Below, one piece after another: positions 3,172 to 24,907 of a stretch of DNA of 27,426 bases. The position numbers and the translations under genes were made by a program. Below the pieces are notes generated by a model. That model did no database searches, was not told where the DNA came from, and worked only from the letters and a program-made list of their open reading frames with translations. Source of the DNA: a virus. Location: the IMG/VR virus record IMGVR_UViG_3300021960_000404, positions 1 through 27,426 of that record; one strand, given 5' to 3'. Each line of letters starts with the position of its first letter. Positions within the stretch are counted from its first letter, which is position 1.

Positions 3172-4473
3172 ATGGATAATGAAGATCAATTTGTAGAAAA
3201 TCAATATAAAGAATGGTTAGAGAATAACGATATATCTAAAGTGGAAGATATAGATGAAAAACACTTAAAAGAAAGTGTTGAAAAAGATTTAGCCTTTGTA
3301 TCTAAAATGACCGTACAAGAATATACATTGTACGAGAAGTGGATAGAAGTCCACGAAAAATATCCTACAGCCGAAACAAGTAGTTTCTTTGATGATAAAC
3401 CAGCTCTTATAGACCCACAGCAAGAGGCCTTTATTAAATCAGTTAAAAACAATATTTGGATTCCTGAGTCACCAGATGATATAGAAAAATTAGAACCTGT
3501 ATTAGAATTTACAGATGATACCGAATTAAATTATGATGGTAAAAAGAGAAGAAGTGATCTATCAGAAAAGTGGAATACATTAAGAACATTTTTATCCACT
3601 ATGAAAAACAACTCTAATATTGGTCGTCAACTATTCTTTATAGTAAAAGATAAGATTACTGAAAAGTACCTAGGCGTGATATGTATATCAGGCGACTTTA
3701 TGGATTTAACACCACGTGATAAGTCAATAGGTTGGAGTAGAGAAATTAAAACATTTAAGGGTAAGATTAATCATACAGCCATTGGTTCATCTATTGTACC
3801 AACACAGCCATTAGGTTATTCATTTACAGGTGGTAAACTATTAGCGTATTTGTGTTTAAGTGATGATGTACAGAATATATGGAAAGAAAAATATGGCGAT
3901 ACATTAGTAGGTGTAACAACCACTAGTTTATATGGTAAGGCAAAGGCTAATACATTATCTCAGTATGATGGATTAAGATTTTGGAAAAGAATGGGTTTTA
4001 CAACAGGCTCAGTATCGTTTCAACCTAGTAGGCCAGTTAGAAATATGATATGGACTTGGTTAAAGAAAAATCATACAAGAAAGTATTGGGAATGGCACGA
4101 AGCCAAAAGACCAAACGGCCAACCATTAAAAAGAGATCACAAGAATAGATCATTGAACTTTACATATTCAAAATTAGACATACCAAAAGAATACATTAGA
4201 ACTGAACATCAAAGAGGTATCTATTTTACAAGATTATATAAAAATACAGATGAGTTTTTAAGAGGTGAAATAGAACAAAAAGATTTAGTTAAAGAAATTG
4301 ATACAAGTACAGAAGCTTTGGTTAAAGTGTGGAAAGATAAACACGCTAGAAAAAGAGTTAAATCCCTAGTTGAACAAAACAGATACTCAACCGATTCTCA
4401 TTTTTATGATGATTTAATCTATTTAAATTGGGAAGAATGTAAAGAGAAGTTTTTAGGTCAAGTAGGTCGTTAA
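3172..4473 (+). CDS. DUF4338 (DruA-like) domain protein, copy 1
   Basis: This 433-residue protein has an acidic N-terminal ~110 residues and then a domain resembling DUF4338, the domain of the Druantia defence protein DruA. Matching blocks are LFFIVKDK, a core RDKSIGWS (DruA family: RDrWIGWs), SSIVPTQPLGY where the family has an RFLILP-like strand, GGKLLAYL, W..KYGD, TTSLYG and YDGLRFWKRMGFTTG. The C-terminal ~150 residues are basic and helical. A diverged paralogue lies at 20044-21171. The biochemical role of DUF4338 is not established; DNA binding or modification, or counter-defence, are possibilities. It is transcribed from a probable leaderless promoter and its stop codon directly abuts tRNA-Gly. 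The domain name is from remembered motif patterns. Confidence 0.65.
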   Translation: MDNEDQFVENQYKEWLENNDISKVEDIDEKHLKESVEKDLAFVSKMTVQEYTLYEKWIEVHEKYPTAETSSFFDDKPALIDPQQEAFIKSVKNNIWIPESPDDIEKLEPVLEFTDDTELNYDGKKRRSDLSEKWNTLRTFLSTMKNNSNIGRQLFFIVKDKITEKYLGVICISGDFMDLTPRDKSIGWSREIKTFKGKINHTAIGSSIVPTQPLGYSFTGGKLLAYLCLSDDVQNIWKEKYGDTLVGVTTTSLYGKAKANTLSQYDGLRFWKRMGFTTGSVSFQPSRPVRNMIWTWLKKNHTRKYWEWHEAKRPNGQPLKRDHKNRSLNFTYSKLDIPKEYIRTEHQRGIYFTRLYKNTDEFLRGEIEQKDLVKEIDTSTEALVKVWKDKHARKRVKSLVEQNRYSTDSHFYDDLIYLNWEECKEKFLGQVGR

Positions 4474-4548
4474 GCGGGTATAGCTCAGGGGTAGAGCGAT
4501 TCGTTGCCAACGAATAGGTCGCTGGTTCAAATCCAGTTACCCGCTCCA
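4474..4548 (+). tRNA. tRNA-Gly (anticodon GCC)
   Basis: A full cloverleaf with encoded CCA. The acceptor stem is 7 perfect pairs (4474-4480 with 4538-4544), with discriminator T and CCA at 4546-4548. The D stem is GCTC/GAGC. The anticodon stem ATTCG/CGAAT carries loop TTGCCAA, giving anticodon GCC at 4506-4508. The T arm is GCTGG-TTCAAAT-CCAGT with a canonical TTC loop. It starts on the base after the TAA of the preceding gene, so it must be cut from that mRNA by RNase P. Confidence 0.97.
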
Positions 4549-7158: not shown

Positions 7159-8356
7159 ACAACAAGAGTTTGTTAAACACGCTTTAGAGAAGTTTGGCAA
7201 ATCAAAATTGACCGTTGGTGAGTTAAAAGAAGCTAATAAAAAGTTTGGCTGTAAATATGCTCCACAATGGTTGATTAAAAATAAAGAATACAAAGTTGGT
7301 AAATCTTTATTCAAGTTACCTATTGACGGTGAAGCTAAATCAGTTAAGGTTGAACAGACTAAAACTGAAAACGAAAAAATCTTAGCACCAGTAAATGAAA
7401 CTAAAAAAGAAGCTGCTTATGTAGTTAGCTCTTTAACTGGCAATATTGTTCCTAAAAAGGATCCAGTATTCGTTTCATTTGGTAACTATCCAGATTTAAA
7501 ATCAATTATTAAATCTAATAAATTCTATCCTGTTTTTATTACTGGTTTATCTGGTAACGGTAAAACTATGGGTGTTACCCAAGCTTGTGCCGAAAACAAA
7601 AGAGAATTGATTAGGGTAAATATTACAATTGAAACAGATGAGGACGACCTACTTGGTGGTTATAGACTTAAAGATGGCCAAACTGTATGGCAAAACGGTC
7701 CTGTAATTGAAGCGATGGAAAGAGGCGCTGTTCTTTTACTTGATGAGATTGACTTAGCAAGTAACAAGATTATGTGTTTACAACCAATCTTAGAAGGCTC
7801 TGGTGTCTTTGTTAAAAAGATTAACAAGTATGTTAAACCAGCGGATGGCTTCAACGTGATTGCTACTGCTAACACTAAAGGCCAAGGTTCCGAAGACGGT
7901 AAGTTTATCGGTACCAATGTTCTTAACGAAGCGTTTTTGGAAAGATTTCCAATTACCTTTGAACAAAAATATCCAAGTGTTAGTATTGAAAAAAAGATAC
8001 TTAACAATACATTAAAGTCTTATGGTAAATCAGACGCCAAATTCGTTGACAAGTTAACAACGTGGGCAGATGTGATTAGAAAAACCTACTTTGATGGTGG
8101 TGTTGATGAGATTATCTCCACAAGAAGATTAGTCCACATTACACAAGCGTATTCAATCTTTGATAATAAGATGAAAGCGATTCAAATGTGTACTAATAGA
8201 TTTGATGAAGATACAAAAAATTCGTTTGTTGAATTATATACTAAAGTTGACTCTGGCGCTAGTGTCGAAGACATTTTAGAAGACCAAAGAAAAGCTGAGG
8301 TTGATTCACAAGTGGATGACAATGATAGTGAGTCAGATGACGAAGATGTTATCTAA
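7145..8356 (+). CDS. cobS: CobS-like AAA+ ATPase
   Basis: 403 residues from the ATG at 7145, chosen because AAAGGA lies 9 nt before it; the ATG at 7127 has no ribosome site. The order is an N-terminal helical domain, Walker A GLSGNGKT (134-141), Walker B LLLDEID (197-203), sensor-1 ATAN (240-243) and an acidic C-terminal tail. This is the MoxR/CobS subfamily, and CobS is a well-known gene of marine T4-like phages. In bacteria CobS and CobT form a ring complex that drives cobalt insertion by CobN. Here it pairs with the HExxH-VWA protein upstream. The physiological substrate in infected cells is not settled. Confidence 0.9.
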   Translation: MLNTKQQEFVKHALEKFGKSKLTVGELKEANKKFGCKYAPQWLIKNKEYKVGKSLFKLPIDGEAKSVKVEQTKTENEKILAPVNETKKEAAYVVSSLTGNIVPKKDPVFVSFGNYPDLKSIIKSNKFYPVFITGLSGNGKTMGVTQACAENKRELIRVNITIETDEDDLLGGYRLKDGQTVWQNGPVIEAMERGAVLLLDEIDLASNKIMCLQPILEGSGVFVKKINKYVKPADGFNVIATANTKGQGSEDGKFIGTNVLNEAFLERFPITFEQKYPSVSIEKKILNNTLKSYGKSDAKFVDKLTTWADVIRKTYFDGGVDEIISTRRLVHITQAYSIFDNKMKAIQMCTNRFDEDTKNSFVELYTKVDSGASVEDILEDQRKAEVDSQVDDNDSESDDEDVI

Positions 8357-10572: not shown

Positions 10573-11397
10573 ATGTTTAGTTATCTAGGTGGTAAAAAAT
10601 TTCAAGCAAAGTGGATTGCCTCAAACTTTCCAAAACACTCTACTTATGTTGAACCTTTTGGTGGTGCTTATTGGGTTTATTTTGTGGCCAATCATCAAAT
10701 AGATCAAGCTCACACAAATGTATATAATGACTTCAATAAAGATATAGCTAATATATTTTACTGTGCCAGACATAAAGATAGAGAATTTTCAAAATCTTTA
10801 TTATCATATAAACCACAAATTAAAGAAACCTTTAATCAATTTAAATCAGATTTAATACCATTCAATACAGATTTTGATTTAGGTGATGTTGAAAGAGCTA
10901 CAAAATATATTTACTTACAAACACAAAGTTTTAGTGGTGATACTTTAAATGAAAAAACAAAATTTGTTGATTTAAAAGGTAAATATAAATCAAAATATCA
11001 ACACTTCACAGATAAGATTAATGATAAAAAATGGTTATATTTTATTAAAGGTATAACTCATATTCACAACGAATCGTTTGAAACAATTATTGATAAGTAC
11101 GATAATGAAGATACATTATTTTATGTTGATCCACCATACTATAAAATGGAAGACTATTATGTAAAAGACTTTCAAAGAAGCCAACATTTAGACCTGGCCA
11201 ATAAATTAAAACAAATAAAAGGTAAGTTTGTATTATCGTATTATGACTTTCCAGACTTACAAAAATGGTTTCCAAAAGACGAATATACTTGGATTGAAAA
11301 ACAATTTAACAAACAAAATGCTAGTAAAAACAAAGGTGCTGGCAAAGGTAAAGAATTATTAATAATGAATTACAAACCAGCATTGACTTTAGAGTGA
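10573..11397 (+). CDS. dam: DNA adenine N6-methyltransferase, D12/Dam class
   Basis: 274 residues. The N-terminus MFSYLGGK is the S-adenosylmethionine-contacting start of the D12 class. VEPFGGA near residue 30 is motif I, and VDPPYY (catalytic D186-P-P-Y) is motif IV; the target-recognition region lies between. It transfers a methyl group to adenine N6 in a specific site. GATC is typical of T4 Dam but cannot be read from sequence. Likely roles are protection from host restriction or marking phage DNA. A second, unrelated adenine methyltransferase (MT-A70) is at 19440. It has a private, probably leaderless, promoter. The end contains the -35 of the next promoter. Confidence 0.92.
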   Translation: MFSYLGGKKFQAKWIASNFPKHSTYVEPFGGAYWVYFVANHQIDQAHTNVYNDFNKDIANIFYCARHKDREFSKSLLSYKPQIKETFNQFKSDLIPFNTDFDLGDVERATKYIYLQTQSFSGDTLNEKTKFVDLKGKYKSKYQHFTDKINDKKWLYFIKGITHIHNESFETIIDKYDNEDTLFYVDPPYYKMEDYYVKDFQRSQHLDLANKLKQIKGKFVLSYYDFPDLQKWFPKDEYTWIEKQFNKQNASKNKGAGKGKELLIMNYKPALTLE

Positions 11398-11411
11398 GTT
11401 TGTGATATATT
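11383..11411 (+). promoter_or_regulatory. Sigma70-like promoter for tRNA-like element and gp45
   Basis: TTGACT (11383-11388), a 17-nt spacer and TATATT (11406-11411), with the extended TGTGA. The expected start site is about 11418, which coincides with the 5' base of the tRNA-like element at 11419. The operon gp45-44-62-regA-rimK-like follows. Confidence 0.75.
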
Positions 11412-11418
11412 TAATAAT

Positions 11419-11492
11419 GCGGATGTCGTATAAAAGTATTATGATAGGTTTCCAACCTGTAGAAGATTGGGCAGTACAATCCATCCGCTCCA
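11419..11492 (+). tRNA. Degenerate tRNA-Gly-like element (anticodon UCC)
   Basis: Seven perfect acceptor pairs, GCGGATG (11419-11425) with CATCCGC (11482-11488), then T and an encoded CCA (11490-11492). The anticodon stem ATAGG/CCTGT holds the 7-nt loop TTTCCAA with TCC at 11451-11453. The T stem GATTG/CAATC is perfect, but the T loop is GGCAGTA instead of a TTCRANN-type loop. The D stem has only about three pairs and its loop (AAAAGTA) lacks the GG pair. U73 and the anticodon match tRNA-Gly. It may be a divergent functional tRNA, a decaying one, or a tRNA mimic at the 5' end of the gp45 mRNA. Confidence 0.75.
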
Positions 11493-11519
11493 AATTAAAT
11501 TATGAAGGAGTGAATAATT

Positions 11520-12185
11520 ATGAATCTATCGAGTGATACGGTTTCTGTATTAAAAAACTTTTCAGATATTAACCAGAATATATTGGTTAAACCTGGAAAC
11601 AAAGTACAGACAATCTCAACAATGAAAAATATTTTAGCTGAAGCTGAAATATCAGAAAAGTTTGATAGCGAGTTTGCTATCTATGACCTACCAGAATTTT
11701 TAAGAGCTGTAGAGTTATTTGAAAAACCAGAACTAAAGTTTAATGGTGGATCAAATGTACAAATAGCTGATACTAATTCTAAACAAGCAATTAAGTATTT
11801 CTTTGCTGACAAATCTGTTATTGTAGCACCTACAAAAAACATTACAATGCCAGATAAAGAAGTAACTTTTACTTTAAAGAAAGACGCCTTTGCTAAATTA
11901 TTAAAAGGTGTTACCACATTAAATTTACCAGATGTCGCTGTTAAAGGTGACGGTAAAAGTATCAAGTTAGTAGCAACAGATAAGAAAAATAAATCTTCAA
12001 ATGATTATTCTTTAAATGTTGGTGAAACTGATAAAACATTTACAGCTTATTTTAAAGCAGAAAACTTTAAAATGGTAAGTGATGATTATGATGTGGCAAT
12101 TTCAAAACAAAAAATAAGTCATTTCGTAAACAGAAATAAACCAATTCAATATTGGATAGCTTTAGAGCCTGATTCGGAGTTTTAA
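11520..12185 (+). CDS. 45: DNA polymerase sliding clamp gp45
   Basis: 221 residues (T4 gp45 is 228). Blocks that match T4 gp45 are the N-terminal LSSDTVSVLKNFSDINQNIL, FAIYDLPEFL, a central VVAP-like strand (VIVAPTKNI) and the C-terminal IALEPDSEF. gp45 forms the trimeric ring that tethers polymerase gp43 to DNA and, in T4, also activates late transcription with gp33/gp55. GAAGGAG lies 7 nt before the ATG at 11520. The leader contains the tRNA-like element. It is the first coding gene of the gp45-44-62-regA group, and the stop overlaps the next start (TAATG). Confidence 0.96.
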   Translation: MNLSSDTVSVLKNFSDINQNILVKPGNKVQTISTMKNILAEAEISEKFDSEFAIYDLPEFLRAVELFEKPELKFNGGSNVQIADTNSKQAIKYFFADKSVIVAPTKNITMPDKEVTFTLKKDAFAKLLKGVTTLNLPDVAVKGDGKSIKLVATDKKNKSSNDYSLNVGETDKTFTAYFKAENFKMVSDDYDVAISKQKISHFVNRNKPIQYWIALEPDSEF

Positions 12186-14101: not shown

Positions 14102-14556
14102 GTGAACAAGAGATAAAATGGTCGCCTGAAAGTATGTTAGAAGTAACAATCAAACAACCAGACGATTTTCTAAAAGTAAGAGAAACACTTACAAGAATAG
14201 GTGTAGCTTCCAGAAAAGATAAAACACTTTACCAATCGTGTCATATATTACATAAACAAGGTAAATATTACATAACACATTTTAAAGAATTATTTGCTTT
14301 AGACGGTAAAAAAGCTACATTAGTAGAAAACGATATACAAAGAAGAAATACAATTGCTATTCTTTTACAAGATTGGAATTTGATTGATATAGTTAAACCT
14401 GAAGAAGCTGAAAACAAGGCTCCATTAAGTCAAATCAAAGTATTACCATTTAAAGAGAAAAAAGAATGGACGCTATCAGCAAAATATAATATTGGTAAGA
14501 AAATTGAAAATAAAGAAGAAGTGAAAGATAGCGACAATGGAAATACCGAAGTTTAA
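14098..14556 (+). CDS. regA: Translational repressor RegA
   Basis: 152 residues (T4 RegA is 122). After a short extension, residues ~13-125 match RegA: LEVTIKQPDDFLKVRETLTRIGVA, KDKTLYQSCHILHKQGKYYI-type block, HFKELFALDG, AILLQDWNLIDIV and EWTLSAKYNIGKK. RegA binds around start codons of many early phage mRNAs, including those for clamp-loader genes, and blocks initiation. It has an extra acidic C-terminal tail that overlaps the next gene by 20 nt. GGGAG lies upstream of the ATG. Nearby unstructured AT-rich start regions would suit its binding mode. Confidence 0.95.
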   Translation: MSEQEIKWSPESMLEVTIKQPDDFLKVRETLTRIGVASRKDKTLYQSCHILHKQGKYYITHFKELFALDGKKATLVENDIQRRNTIAILLQDWNLIDIVKPEEAENKAPLSQIKVLPFKEKKEWTLSAKYNIGKKIENKEEVKDSDNGNTEV

Positions 14557-16039
14557 AGATTATATTTCTGAACAAGACATAGAGCGTAAAGATAAACCTA
14601 TTACGGTTGCTATTATTACAAAGTCAGCTCCAAAAGTAAAACAACAAAAACCAGGTTCACCTTTAAAGAAAGAACTTACAGTAGGTCTTATAGAAAAGGC
14701 TTGTAAAAAAAAAGGTTTTGAATGTGTTATCATAAACACTAAACACGCTATCATCACAGCAAAAGACGAAGAAAAAAATACCTTAACTGTTTACAATTAT
14801 GATGGTAAAGATTCCGAACATACATTTATAGGTAAAGATACAGTTTGTATAACAAGAGCAGGTGCTGTTGAAGATGAAGCAGGCCTTTCTTTAATATCAG
14901 CATTTCAAAATTCAAGTGCCTTTATGTTAAACACAAGAGCGGCTATGCTTACTTGTGACAATAAATTAACAACAGCTTTATTATTTGAAAAATTTGGAAT
15001 ACCAATTCCAAGAACAGCCTTTGTATCTAACGAAAAGAATATAGATGACGCTGTTAAAATGGTTGGTAATAATTTTCCAATTATACTTAAAACACTTACA
15101 GGCACACAAGGTATTGGTGTAATTAAAGTTGAAAGTTATGAATCTTTAGTATCTACTATTCAAGCATTATGGAAACACGATGCAGAATTATTAATACAAG
15201 AATATATGCCTACAGCATTTGATGTAAGAACATTTGTGGTAGATAATAAAATATTTGCCTCTACAAAAAGAATACACTCCTCATATGATTTTAGATCAAA
15301 TACTCATAGAGGTGCTGAAGCTAAACCATATAAATTAAGTGAAGAAGAACAAGAACTTGTTTTAAAAGCAAGTAGAGTTTCAAAAGCATATATGGTAGGA
15401 GTTGACCACATTGTTTATAAAGGAAAACCTTATATATTAGAAATCAACGGAAGTCCAGGTTCAGGTGCTGATTACGAGGGTTATCAATATAAAGATTATT
15501 ATTCTGATCCAGAACCATCAGGAAGAATAGATGGTGAAAAATTAATGTATAACGTTATTGATTGGGTTTCTAAAAGAGGCCATTGGGATAGACAAGCTAT
15601 GTTAGAATGTGGTTGGTTAGAAACAATTGACATAGATGAAGTTGGAAAAGTTAGAGCAAAGTTTGATACAGGTAATGGTTCAAAAGCTTGTGCTTTACAC
15701 GCTGATGAAATTATAGAACAAGGCAAAACAATTAAATGGAAATATAACGGTAAAACCTTTTCTAAACCAAGACACGGTACAAGTAAAATTTTTAGAGCAA
15801 ATGCTGATGGTGAAGAGCCATCCGAAACAAGACCAACTGTATTAGTAGATTTAAGTTTTAATGGATTTACATATAAAAATATTGAAGTTGGTTTAGATGC
15901 AAGACCTCGTTCAGGTTCAGATTTGCTTATATGTAGAGATTTAATGCGACAGATGAATGTTAGTGTCAACCCTAATAGAACTTTTGTATTAAGTAAACGA
16001 TTAAGACCAGTTGAAAAAGAAAATAACATTGACAATTAA
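14537..16039 (+). CDS. RimK-like ATP-grasp ligase fused to RimB-like protease
   Basis: 500 residues in three parts. An N-terminal pre-ATP-grasp region is followed by an ATP-grasp core (~130-345) with the nucleotide-binding LKTLTGTQGIGVI loop, QEYMPTAFDVRTFVVD and the metal-binding EINGSPG, as in RimK, which adds glutamates to the C-terminus of ribosomal protein bS6. A C-terminal domain (~365-495) resembles RimB-type retropepsin-like proteases: KFDTGNGSKACALHADEI with D377-T-G, a later VDLSFNG strand and a GSDLLICRDLM strand. RimB trims those glutamates. Ligase and trimming enzyme would thus be joined in one chain. The first 12 residues, MEIPKFKDYISE, resemble a T4 capsid-targeting sequence. 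The substrate in phage infection is unproven. Confidence 0.85.
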   Translation: MEIPKFKDYISEQDIERKDKPITVAIITKSAPKVKQQKPGSPLKKELTVGLIEKACKKKGFECVIINTKHAIITAKDEEKNTLTVYNYDGKDSEHTFIGKDTVCITRAGAVEDEAGLSLISAFQNSSAFMLNTRAAMLTCDNKLTTALLFEKFGIPIPRTAFVSNEKNIDDAVKMVGNNFPIILKTLTGTQGIGVIKVESYESLVSTIQALWKHDAELLIQEYMPTAFDVRTFVVDNKIFASTKRIHSSYDFRSNTHRGAEAKPYKLSEEEQELVLKASRVSKAYMVGVDHIVYKGKPYILEINGSPGSGADYEGYQYKDYYSDPEPSGRIDGEKLMYNVIDWVSKRGHWDRQAMLECGWLETIDIDEVGKVRAKFDTGNGSKACALHADEIIEQGKTIKWKYNGKTFSKPRHGTSKIFRANADGEEPSETRPTVLVDLSFNGFTYKNIEVGLDARPRSGSDLLICRDLMRQMNVSVNPNRTFVLSKRLRPVEKENNIDN

Positions 16040-23529: not shown

Positions 23530-24907
23530 CGAAAGAATTGAAACAACTATATTAAAGAACTTCTTTTATAATGAAGACTTTACCAGAAAGGCCTTGCCTT
23601 TTGTAAAGCCTGATTATTTTACAAATAGAATTGAAAAACTATTATACGAAGAAGTATATAACTTTGTCAATCAATATAAGAACCTACCTACAAAAGAAAC
23701 AATCTTAATAGAGTTTAATCGTAGAAAAGATTTAAACGAGGAAGAAGTTAAATCAGTTAAAGAACTTGTAAACACTTTTACAAACGAAAAATCTGATTTA
23801 CAATGGTTGTTAGATACTACAGAAAGATTTTGTAAAGACAGAGCAGTACATAATGCTGTGTTATCTGGTATCAAAATCTTAGATGGTAAAGATAAACTTA
23901 AACAACCTGAAGCAATACCAGGAATATTAAGTGAGGCCTTAGCCGTTAGTTTTGATAATCATATTGGACACGATTATATAGCTGACGCTGAAAGTAGATT
24001 TGATTGGTACCATACAAAAGAAAAACGTTATCCGTTTGATTTAAGTTTCTTTAATAGAATTACAAAAGGCGGTGTGCCAAGTAAAACATTGAATATTGCT
24101 TTAGCAGGTACAGGTGTTGGTAAATCCTTGTTTATGTGTCACGTTGCTTCAAGTTTTTTAACACAAGGTTTAAATGTATTGTATATTACTTTAGAAATGG
24201 CTGAAGAAAGAATTGCTGAAAGAATTGACGCTAATTTAATGGATGTTACAATGGATGAATTACACGATATACCAAAACAAATGTATGATAATAAGATGAC
24301 TAAGTTAAGAAGTAAAACAACTGGTCAACTAATTATTAAAGAATATCCAACAGCGTCTGCTCACGCAGGACATTTTAAAGCTTTAATTAATGAACTTGCT
24401 TTAAAGAAAAGTTTTAAACCAGATGTTGTATTTGTAGATTATTTAAATATTTGTGCTAGTAGTAGATTTAAAGGTGGTAACATATCATCTTATTTTTACA
24501 TTAAAGCAATTGCCGAGGAGTTAAGAGGCCTAGCTGTTGAACATAATGTACCTATTTTTTCTGCTACACAAACAACCAGAACTGGCTATGTATCAACTGA
24601 CATTGGTTTAGAAGATACATCTGAAAGTTTTGGTTTACCAGCGACAGCCGACTTTATGTTTGCTCTAATGTCTAATGAAGAATTAGAAGCTTTAGGGCAA
24701 ATGAAAGTGAAACAGTTAAAGAACAGATATAATGACCCTAGCGTGAATAGAGCATTTATTGTTGGTGTTGATAGAAGTAAGATGAGATTATATGATGTGG
24801 AAAATACGGCACAAAATATAGTAGATAGTAACCAAACAAAAGAAAAAGAAGGAAATTATCCTACACCTGAACAGGCTTATGATAAGTTTTCTGATTTCAA
24901 AGTATAG
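23522..24907 (+). CDS. 41: Replicative helicase gp41 (DnaB-like)
   Basis: 461 residues (T4 gp41 is 475). An N-terminal helical domain (~1-150) is followed by the RecA-like DnaB core. Walker A is GTGVGKS (196-202, in IALAGTGVGKSLFMCH), with LYITLEMAEERIAERI after it, Walker B DVVFVDYLNICAS and the sensor-type PIFSATQTTRTGY. It unwinds the fork on the lagging strand with the primase gp61, which is not in the window. The ATG at 23522 overlaps the previous stop; an in-frame TTG 3 nt earlier is less likely. The gene order uvsX-x-41 is as in T4-like phages. Confidence 0.96.
   Translation: MNNERIETTILKNFFYNEDFTRKALPFVKPDYFTNRIEKLLYEEVYNFVNQYKNLPTKETILIEFNRRKDLNEEEVKSVKELVNTFTNEKSDLQWLLDTTERFCKDRAVHNAVLSGIKILDGKDKLKQPEAIPGILSEALAVSFDNHIGHDYIADAESRFDWYHTKEKRYPFDLSFFNRITKGGVPSKTLNIALAGTGVGKSLFMCHVASSFLTQGLNVLYITLEMAEERIAERIDANLMDVTMDELHDIPKQMYDNKMTKLRSKTTGQLIIKEYPTASAHAGHFKALINELALKKSFKPDVVFVDYLNICASSRFKGGNISSYFYIKAIAEELRGLAVEHNVPIFSATQTTRTGYVSTDIGLEDTSESFGLPATADFMFALMSNEELEALGQMKVKQLKNRYNDPSVNRAFIVGVDRSKMRLYDVENTAQNIVDSNQTKEKEGNYPTPEQAYDKFSDFKV

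Follow-up and report, generated by a model that had tools for sequence, protein, structure and literature searches.

A phage tRNA-Gly gene with coupled D-loop and T-loop exchanges upstream of a sliding-clamp gene

Introduction

Directly upstream of the gp45 sliding-clamp gene of IMG/VR record IMGVR_UViG_3300021960_000404 lies a cloverleaf-like element without some of the loop bases that normally close the tRNA elbow. Is this element a working tRNA, the remains of one, or a tRNA-shaped part of the clamp mRNA? The G18·Psi55 contact is treated as near-universal in tRNAs with a normal cloverleaf. We analyzed the element within the window, by which we mean the whole stretch of 27,426 nucleotides, and in its relatives. 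The window represents part of the genome of a marine, Mosig-like SAR11 myophage, with 76.5% identity to Pelagibacter phage Mosig around gp45. The clamp region also encodes a RimK-like ATP-grasp ligase at 14537–16039 (PF08443, 129 bits), annotated in Mosig as a glutathione synthetase.

The element is a tRNA-Gly(UCC) gene

The element, its parts and the features that bear on it are listed below.

10573–11397, plus strand: D12-class adenine DNA methyltransferase (Pfam PF02086); its 3' end overlaps the -35
11383–11388, plus strand: -35 TTGACT (relatives have TTGACT or TTGACA at this place)
11406–11411, plus strand: extended -10 TATATT, preceded by TG
11419–11492, plus strand: tRNA-Gly(UCC) gene with encoded CCA (RF00005, 37.0 bits; family covariance model R1, 90.7 bits; covariation); G1 is 11419
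11432–11438, plus strand: D loop AAAAGTA, with A18 at 11435 and G19 at 11436; A18-G19 is coupled to G55-C56
11451–11453, plus strand: anticodon UCC in the 7-nt loop TTTCCAA, read from the sequence
11470–11476, plus strand: T loop GGCAGTA, with G54, G55 at 11471 and C56 at 11472
11489, plus strand: U73, followed by CCA at 11490–11492
11505–11510, plus strand: AAGGAG, ribosome-binding site of the clamp gene, beginning 12 nt 3' of the CCA (read from the sequence)
11520–12185, plus strand: gp45 sliding clamp (Pfam PF09116 and PF02916), the first gene 3' of the tRNA
4474–4548, plus strand: canonical tRNA-Gly(GCC), comparison gene, with G18-G19 and T loop TTCAAAT

The first-pass annotation had described an intact acceptor stem, T stem, UCC anticodon loop, U73 and CCA, and all of these are present: all seven pairs of the acceptor stem (GCGGATG/CATCCGC) can form, as can all five of the T stem (GATTG/CAATC) and all five of the anticodon stem. 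The T loop indeed contains no TTC. The D loop was rightly said to have no GG, with the refinement that G19 is kept and G18 alone is altered, to A; C56 of the T loop is also kept. The D arm, reported to have about three pairs, has three of four, but this is not an oddity, because GTAT/TTAY is found identically in canonical phage tRNA-Gly genes. As an RF00005 tRNA, the window element is missing the canonical elbow, G18-G19 with T54-Psi55-C56, and has A18, G54 and G55 instead. With G at position 55, the altered tRNA-Gly cannot carry pseudouridine there.

The proposed check with tRNA finders and covariance models gave a divided result. ARAGORN made no call at 11419–11492, and a filtered Rfam scan over the whole window dropped the element; scanned alone, the stretch scored 37.0 bits against RF00005, above the cut-off of 29 (E 9e-7). 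Its fold had a z of -3.0. The score, the fold and the recurrence of the promoter-plus-element arrangement in dozens of phages argue that the element is not a chance match. Elsewhere in the window, a DruA-family protein (3172–4473; PF14236, DUF4338 in Mosig) ends 1 base before the canonical tRNA-Gly(GCC).

Distribution in phages

A pattern scan of IMG/VR for the element family yielded at least 120 contigs. In a separate set of 80 IMG/VR loci picked through the gp45 protein alone, about half carried the family (44 loci and 56 matches by script count, 2 of them false), either immediately 5' of gp45 or with one gene in between. Most of the remaining gp45-anchored loci have a similar promoter that is followed at once by the gp45 ribosome-binding site, with no tRNA directly before the clamp. 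Among 84,980 bacterial and archaeal genomes, a pattern scan returned 8 matches, of which only one, L205, proved on inspection to be a tRNA. It lies on a contig of a MAG, 5' of a gp45-like gene, so the altered glycine form looks phage-bound. Loci L207–L281, 75 chance matches of a T-loop-anchored scan, were left out.

The complete genomes of Mosig and HTVC008M, the two cultured SAR11 myophages examined, each contain one unannotated copy. In Mosig this is a tRNA-Gly(ACC) at 7779–7852. The annotated hypothetical protein Mosig_000011 (MT647606, 7774–7869) overlaps it in the same orientation and is unlikely to be a real gene. The HTVC008M copy (91140–91213), located 5' of the S21 gene, is the sole tRNA gene found in that phage and is called by ARAGORN. 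The single copies rule out a repeated leader present many times per phage, which had been considered for the element.

A second type of altered tRNA-Gly, with anticodon GCC or ACC and T loop AGCGTTA, was observed in L003 (2390), L206 (4001) and L007 (5530); its D loop is AGAAGTA in L003 and L206, and a promoter at +1 is mostly absent. Both types occur together in some phages.

Selection on the stems and on glycine identity

Among 44 divergent members of the glycine family, the covariation score was 0.632, compared with 0.157 after shuffling and no more than 0.108 in slid controls, and 14 of the 22 pairs showed two-sided changes. Bases change freely in the anticodon stem, the T stem and the lower part of the acceptor stem, yet pairing is kept in at least 99% of cells. 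The homologue alignment that had been suggested as a check therefore shows stems that covary beside loops that stay non-canonical, in agreement with the earlier view that simple decay does not account for the element.

The family is invariant at G1-G4/C69-C72, U73, C35, C36, A37, A18, G19, G55 and C56, and A18-G19 occurs in 86/86 unique 71-nt members. Experiments have defined U73, G1-C72, C2-G71, G3-C70, C35 and C36 as the glycine identity set of bacteria (PMC9976931), and all of these are 100% conserved in the 86 unique sequences; because the sequences share descent, the family counts are not independent events, and because some scan patterns fixed GCGG or CCGCTCCA, some of the conservation follows in part from the search itself. 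This bias does not affect the gp45-anchored set, which agrees: all 54 elements of the loci picked by gp45 alone begin with GCG and have U73 and an NCC anticodon.

Coupled exchange of the D and T loops

The elbow bases of the element change as a set. We collected tRNAs by structure alone from all fetched loci, using our own script as the tRNA finder. All 123 unique tRNAs with G55-C56 had A18-G19 (by our reading, 5 of the 123 also have a GG, at positions 15–17 or 19–20), and canonical G18-G19 accompanied U/C55-C56 in 506/507. A stricter set of 644 tRNAs, in which A14 and G53-C61 were the only loop constraints, gave matching D and T loops in 515/515 and 114/115. In this set, noncanonical T loops were joined to the matching D loop in 126/129 tRNAs, compared with at most 49 in 500 shuffles of the D loops among the T loops. 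As one scan had chosen on both loops, the table was redone without tRNAs matching any search pattern, and the coupling persisted (AG with G55C56 in 32/34, GG with U55C56 in 470/470). Positions 19 and 56 are also coupled, as G-C, A-U (9/10) or U-A (2/2), and at 54-58, G/G or A/U replaces U/A. The coupling of 18-19 with 55-56 suggests that A18 and G55 touch in space.

The same altered elbow was found in Gln, Ile, Glu, Thr, Met, Val, Arg, Phe, Trp, Cys, Leu, Ala, Lys, His, Asn, Asp, Pro and Ser tRNAs, which have normal 7-nt anticodon loops and lie beside canonical tRNAs in the same phage. In the strict set, 36 of the 38 non-glycine altered tRNAs resembled the canonical tRNAs of the same isotype more closely than the altered tRNAs of a different one, a likeness that points to repeated, mostly independent conversion in the other isotypes. 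In contigs picked by a canonical tRNA-Gly, 294/301 of the other tRNAs were canonical and none was strictly A18/G55, with a few in looser scans. The swap was also absent from the tRNA-rich cultured phages T5, DSS3_MAL1, RcXuper, iF6, PA5oct and GEC_vB_MG; the 60–109 kb region of KVP40 contained no annotated tRNA. The swap is thus lineage-specific. One phage has a nearly fully re-keyed tRNA set: at 24000–43000 of an 83-kb viral contig (L575, G001), 14 of the 16 tRNAs found, of many isotypes, carry the altered elbow.

These results do not bear out the term "degenerate" that had been applied to the element, as its loop changes are coupled and coherent. The matched swap in many related phage tRNAs, together with the promoter at the gene start, suggests a variant that works, as opposed to a defective gene.

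Our search of the openly accessible literature returned no description of an A18/G55 elbow, and none is mentioned in the tRNA reviews PMC7912444 and PMC7609411. Suppressor tRNAs with altered D/T loops have been selected in vivo in older work, including a 2007 study cited in PMC4191394, and the A18/G55 contact may have been seen before in such selected tRNAs.

Promoter and transcript

The promoter in the window reads TTGACT-17-TATATT, and its -10 ends 7 nt (11412–11418) before G1, as the first-pass annotation had stated. Enough upstream sequence was available for 136 distinct loci with an altered tRNA-Gly. In 69 of them, a -35/-10 pair is present with its -10 ending 7–10 nt before G1 (7 nt in 46, 8 in 12, 9 in 7 and 10 in 4), against 1 of 97 canonical phage tRNA-Gly genes. 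The direct reading of this spacing is that transcription would initiate at or near G1, and the earlier proposal that initiation sets the 5' end fits the position of G1.

In several relatives (L003 at 50–110, L005, L048, L053–L055 and L059), the -35 TTGACT lies inside the loop of a GC-rich, terminator-like hairpin. An example of such an overlapping terminator and gp45 promoter is GGCGAGG-CAGCATTGACTT-CCTCGCC-TTTTT.

We also considered whether the anticodon arm pairs in a conserved way with the start of gp45. An alternative fold is predicted for the window; the duplex energies of native and swapped tRNA/gp45-start pairs were equal (-15.8 and -15.9 kcal/mol), and the candidate was rejected.

The gene that follows the altered tRNA-Gly is gp45 in many loci, peroxiredoxin (PF08534) in others, DUF3310 in one locus and S21 in HTVC008M.

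Decoding features

Within the glycine family, U33 is present in 85/86 and A37 in 86/86 members, and about 95% have 7-nt anticodon loops. The relatives' anticodons are UCC, ACC or GCC. GGU is the main glycine codon of the phage, at 34 per thousand. Anticodon loops of 5–6 nt occur in 7 of the 136 distinct loci and are hard to reconcile with normal decoding. CCA(A) is still present in L121, L127, L132, L137, L169 and L180, which have such short loops.

G51-C63, the strong EF-Tu pair, occurs in 2/76 altered versus 41/56 canonical phage tRNA-Gly (1/61 versus 6/13 when matched for low GC); the T stem in the window has G49-C65 and U51-A63. The inefficient recruitment by elongation factor suggested earlier is therefore possible, as judged from T-stem sequence. 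A staphylococcal set of tRNA-Gly, proposed to stay out of translation, also lacks G51-C63; its T stem is weak for EF-Tu, with A49-U65 and A51-U63, and a role as glycine donor to a non-ribosomal enzyme or as a charging sensor has been proposed for the cell-wall tRNA-Gly of these bacteria (PMC4052509).

Interpretation

The element probably encodes a functional phage tRNA-Gly that is leaderless and has an alternative but compensated elbow, in which the D- and T-loop contacts have been exchanged as a set. A18/G55 would replace G18·Psi55 while G19-C56 is retained, so that the elbow could still close. Charging by the host glycyl-tRNA synthetase would be expected, since none of the six bacterial glycine determinants is missing, and the tRNA would read GGA (UCC, in the window) or GGU (ACC, in relatives). 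RNA polymerase would start at or within a few nucleotides of G1; with the start at G1, the 5' end would come from initiation and RNase P would be unneeded. The tRNA would form the first part of the clamp-operon transcript, from which 3' processing would free it.

Among the other readings, we consider it improbable that the element is a charged tRNA-Gly that does not decode, binding EF-Tu poorly and giving its glycine to a non-ribosomal enzyme or serving as a charging sensor. We retain this reading at that level because the short anticodon loops (7/136 loci, CCA(A) kept), the loss of G51-C63 and the likeness of this loss and of the altered elbow to the staphylococcal set (PMC4052509) are set against the U33, A37 and 7-nt loop kept in about 95%. 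The invariant glycine identity would also suit it, whereas the same elbow in many other isotypes counts against it, and Pfam identified no aminoacyl-tRNA-using transferase among ten proteins (8 from the window, 2 from relatives).

Still less likely is a tRNA-shaped leader that is never cut out and that protects or regulates the clamp mRNA, a reading close to the earlier suggestion of a tRNA mimic. The element would be the first in the transcript, 21–39 nt before the clamp ATG, and relatives likewise have the tRNA-Gly at the head of the gp45 operon, as a leader should. The promoter-tRNA unit, however, also stands 5' of the peroxiredoxin gene in some relatives and S21 follows in HTVC008M; this varied next gene and the absence of excess complementarity between the tRNA and the mRNA start favor a tRNA gene that shares a transcript over a clamp-specific leader. 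Most gp45-anchored loci have a similar promoter and no tRNA directly before the clamp, and a leader would leave the invariant C35, C36 and U73 and the altered elbows in tRNA clusters unexplained. A decaying pseudogene of a T4-type tRNA-Gly, as the rejection by ARAGORN and single loop bases off the consensus might suggest, is scarcely credible. It is in effect refuted by the stem covariation, and the invariant loops and identity bases, the conserved promoter spacing and the perfect D/T coupling count against it too; the unconstrained stem mutations of a pseudogene are absent.

A broader proposal, which we put forward tentatively and regard as rather unlikely, is that some phage lineages repeatedly re-key the elbow through matched sets at 18-55, 19-56 and 54-58 so that host enzymes that read it cannot act. 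TruB, TrmA, RNase P or tRNA-cutting defences would be evaded while ribosomes and synthetases would still accept the tRNA, and the leaderless promoter would remove the need for RNase P. Evasion of elbow-reading host enzymes as such is plausible. Mutation of the anticodon loop is a known way for phage tRNAs to escape host defences (PMC10264068), and if the swap does block host modification or cleavage, it would be a second route.

Comparison with known tRNAs

Returning to the compensated tRNA-Gly, one close counterpart is the canonical T4-type phage tRNA-Gly(UCC), with which it shares the acceptor GCGG/CCGC, the D stem GTAT/TTAY, the anticodon arm and U73. It differs in having A18 not G18, G55 not U55 and usually G54/G58 not U54/A58, in the loss of G51-C63 and, at half of the loci, in having a promoter of its own at G1. 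The staphylococcal non-proteinogenic tRNA-Gly (PMC4052509) likewise has an abnormal 18-19, and its weak 51-63 pair may have a parallel in the phage family; it carries UU or CU at 18-19, whereas the phage gene has AG with a compensating G55, keeps G19-C56 and has a promoter at +1. The leaderless tRNAs of Nanoarchaeum equitans (PMC10100707) have promoters placed for a start at tRNA position 1, an arrangement that the phage gene may share; here, the promoter is of the bacterial sigma-70 type in a phage, an mRNA follows, and only this tRNA type is concerned and not the whole set. Natural active tRNAs without G18-G19 and T-Psi-C are known in tRNA-Pyl and mitochondrial tRNAs (PMC7609411), in which the contact is lost or reshaped and tRNA-Pyl has a small D loop; in the phage tRNAs, in contrast, the loop sizes are normal, the pair is exchanged and G19-C56 is kept.

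Natural tRNAs whose positions 18 and 55 vary only as a pair show which alternative contact evolution accepts, and the altered tRNAs provide ready-made pairs for testing the roles of the elbow contact and of Psi55. The unannotated copies in Mosig and HTVC008M indicate that tRNA annotation overlooks such genes.

A compensated elbow change also occurs in a classical laboratory phage, in T5 tRNA-Ile1 (AY543070, 28210–28286; L590, 13211–13287, minus strand), which has G18-A19 with U55-U56 and T loop TTTAAAT, the A19-U56 form; the change is at 19-56, not 18-55. The record notes that this tRNA functions as a suppressor. Two further phage tRNAs, called Pyl by ARAGORN in L429 (1399–1473, anticodon CUA) and by annotation in DSS3_MAL1 (L592, 8126–8199), are possibly suppressor tRNAs.
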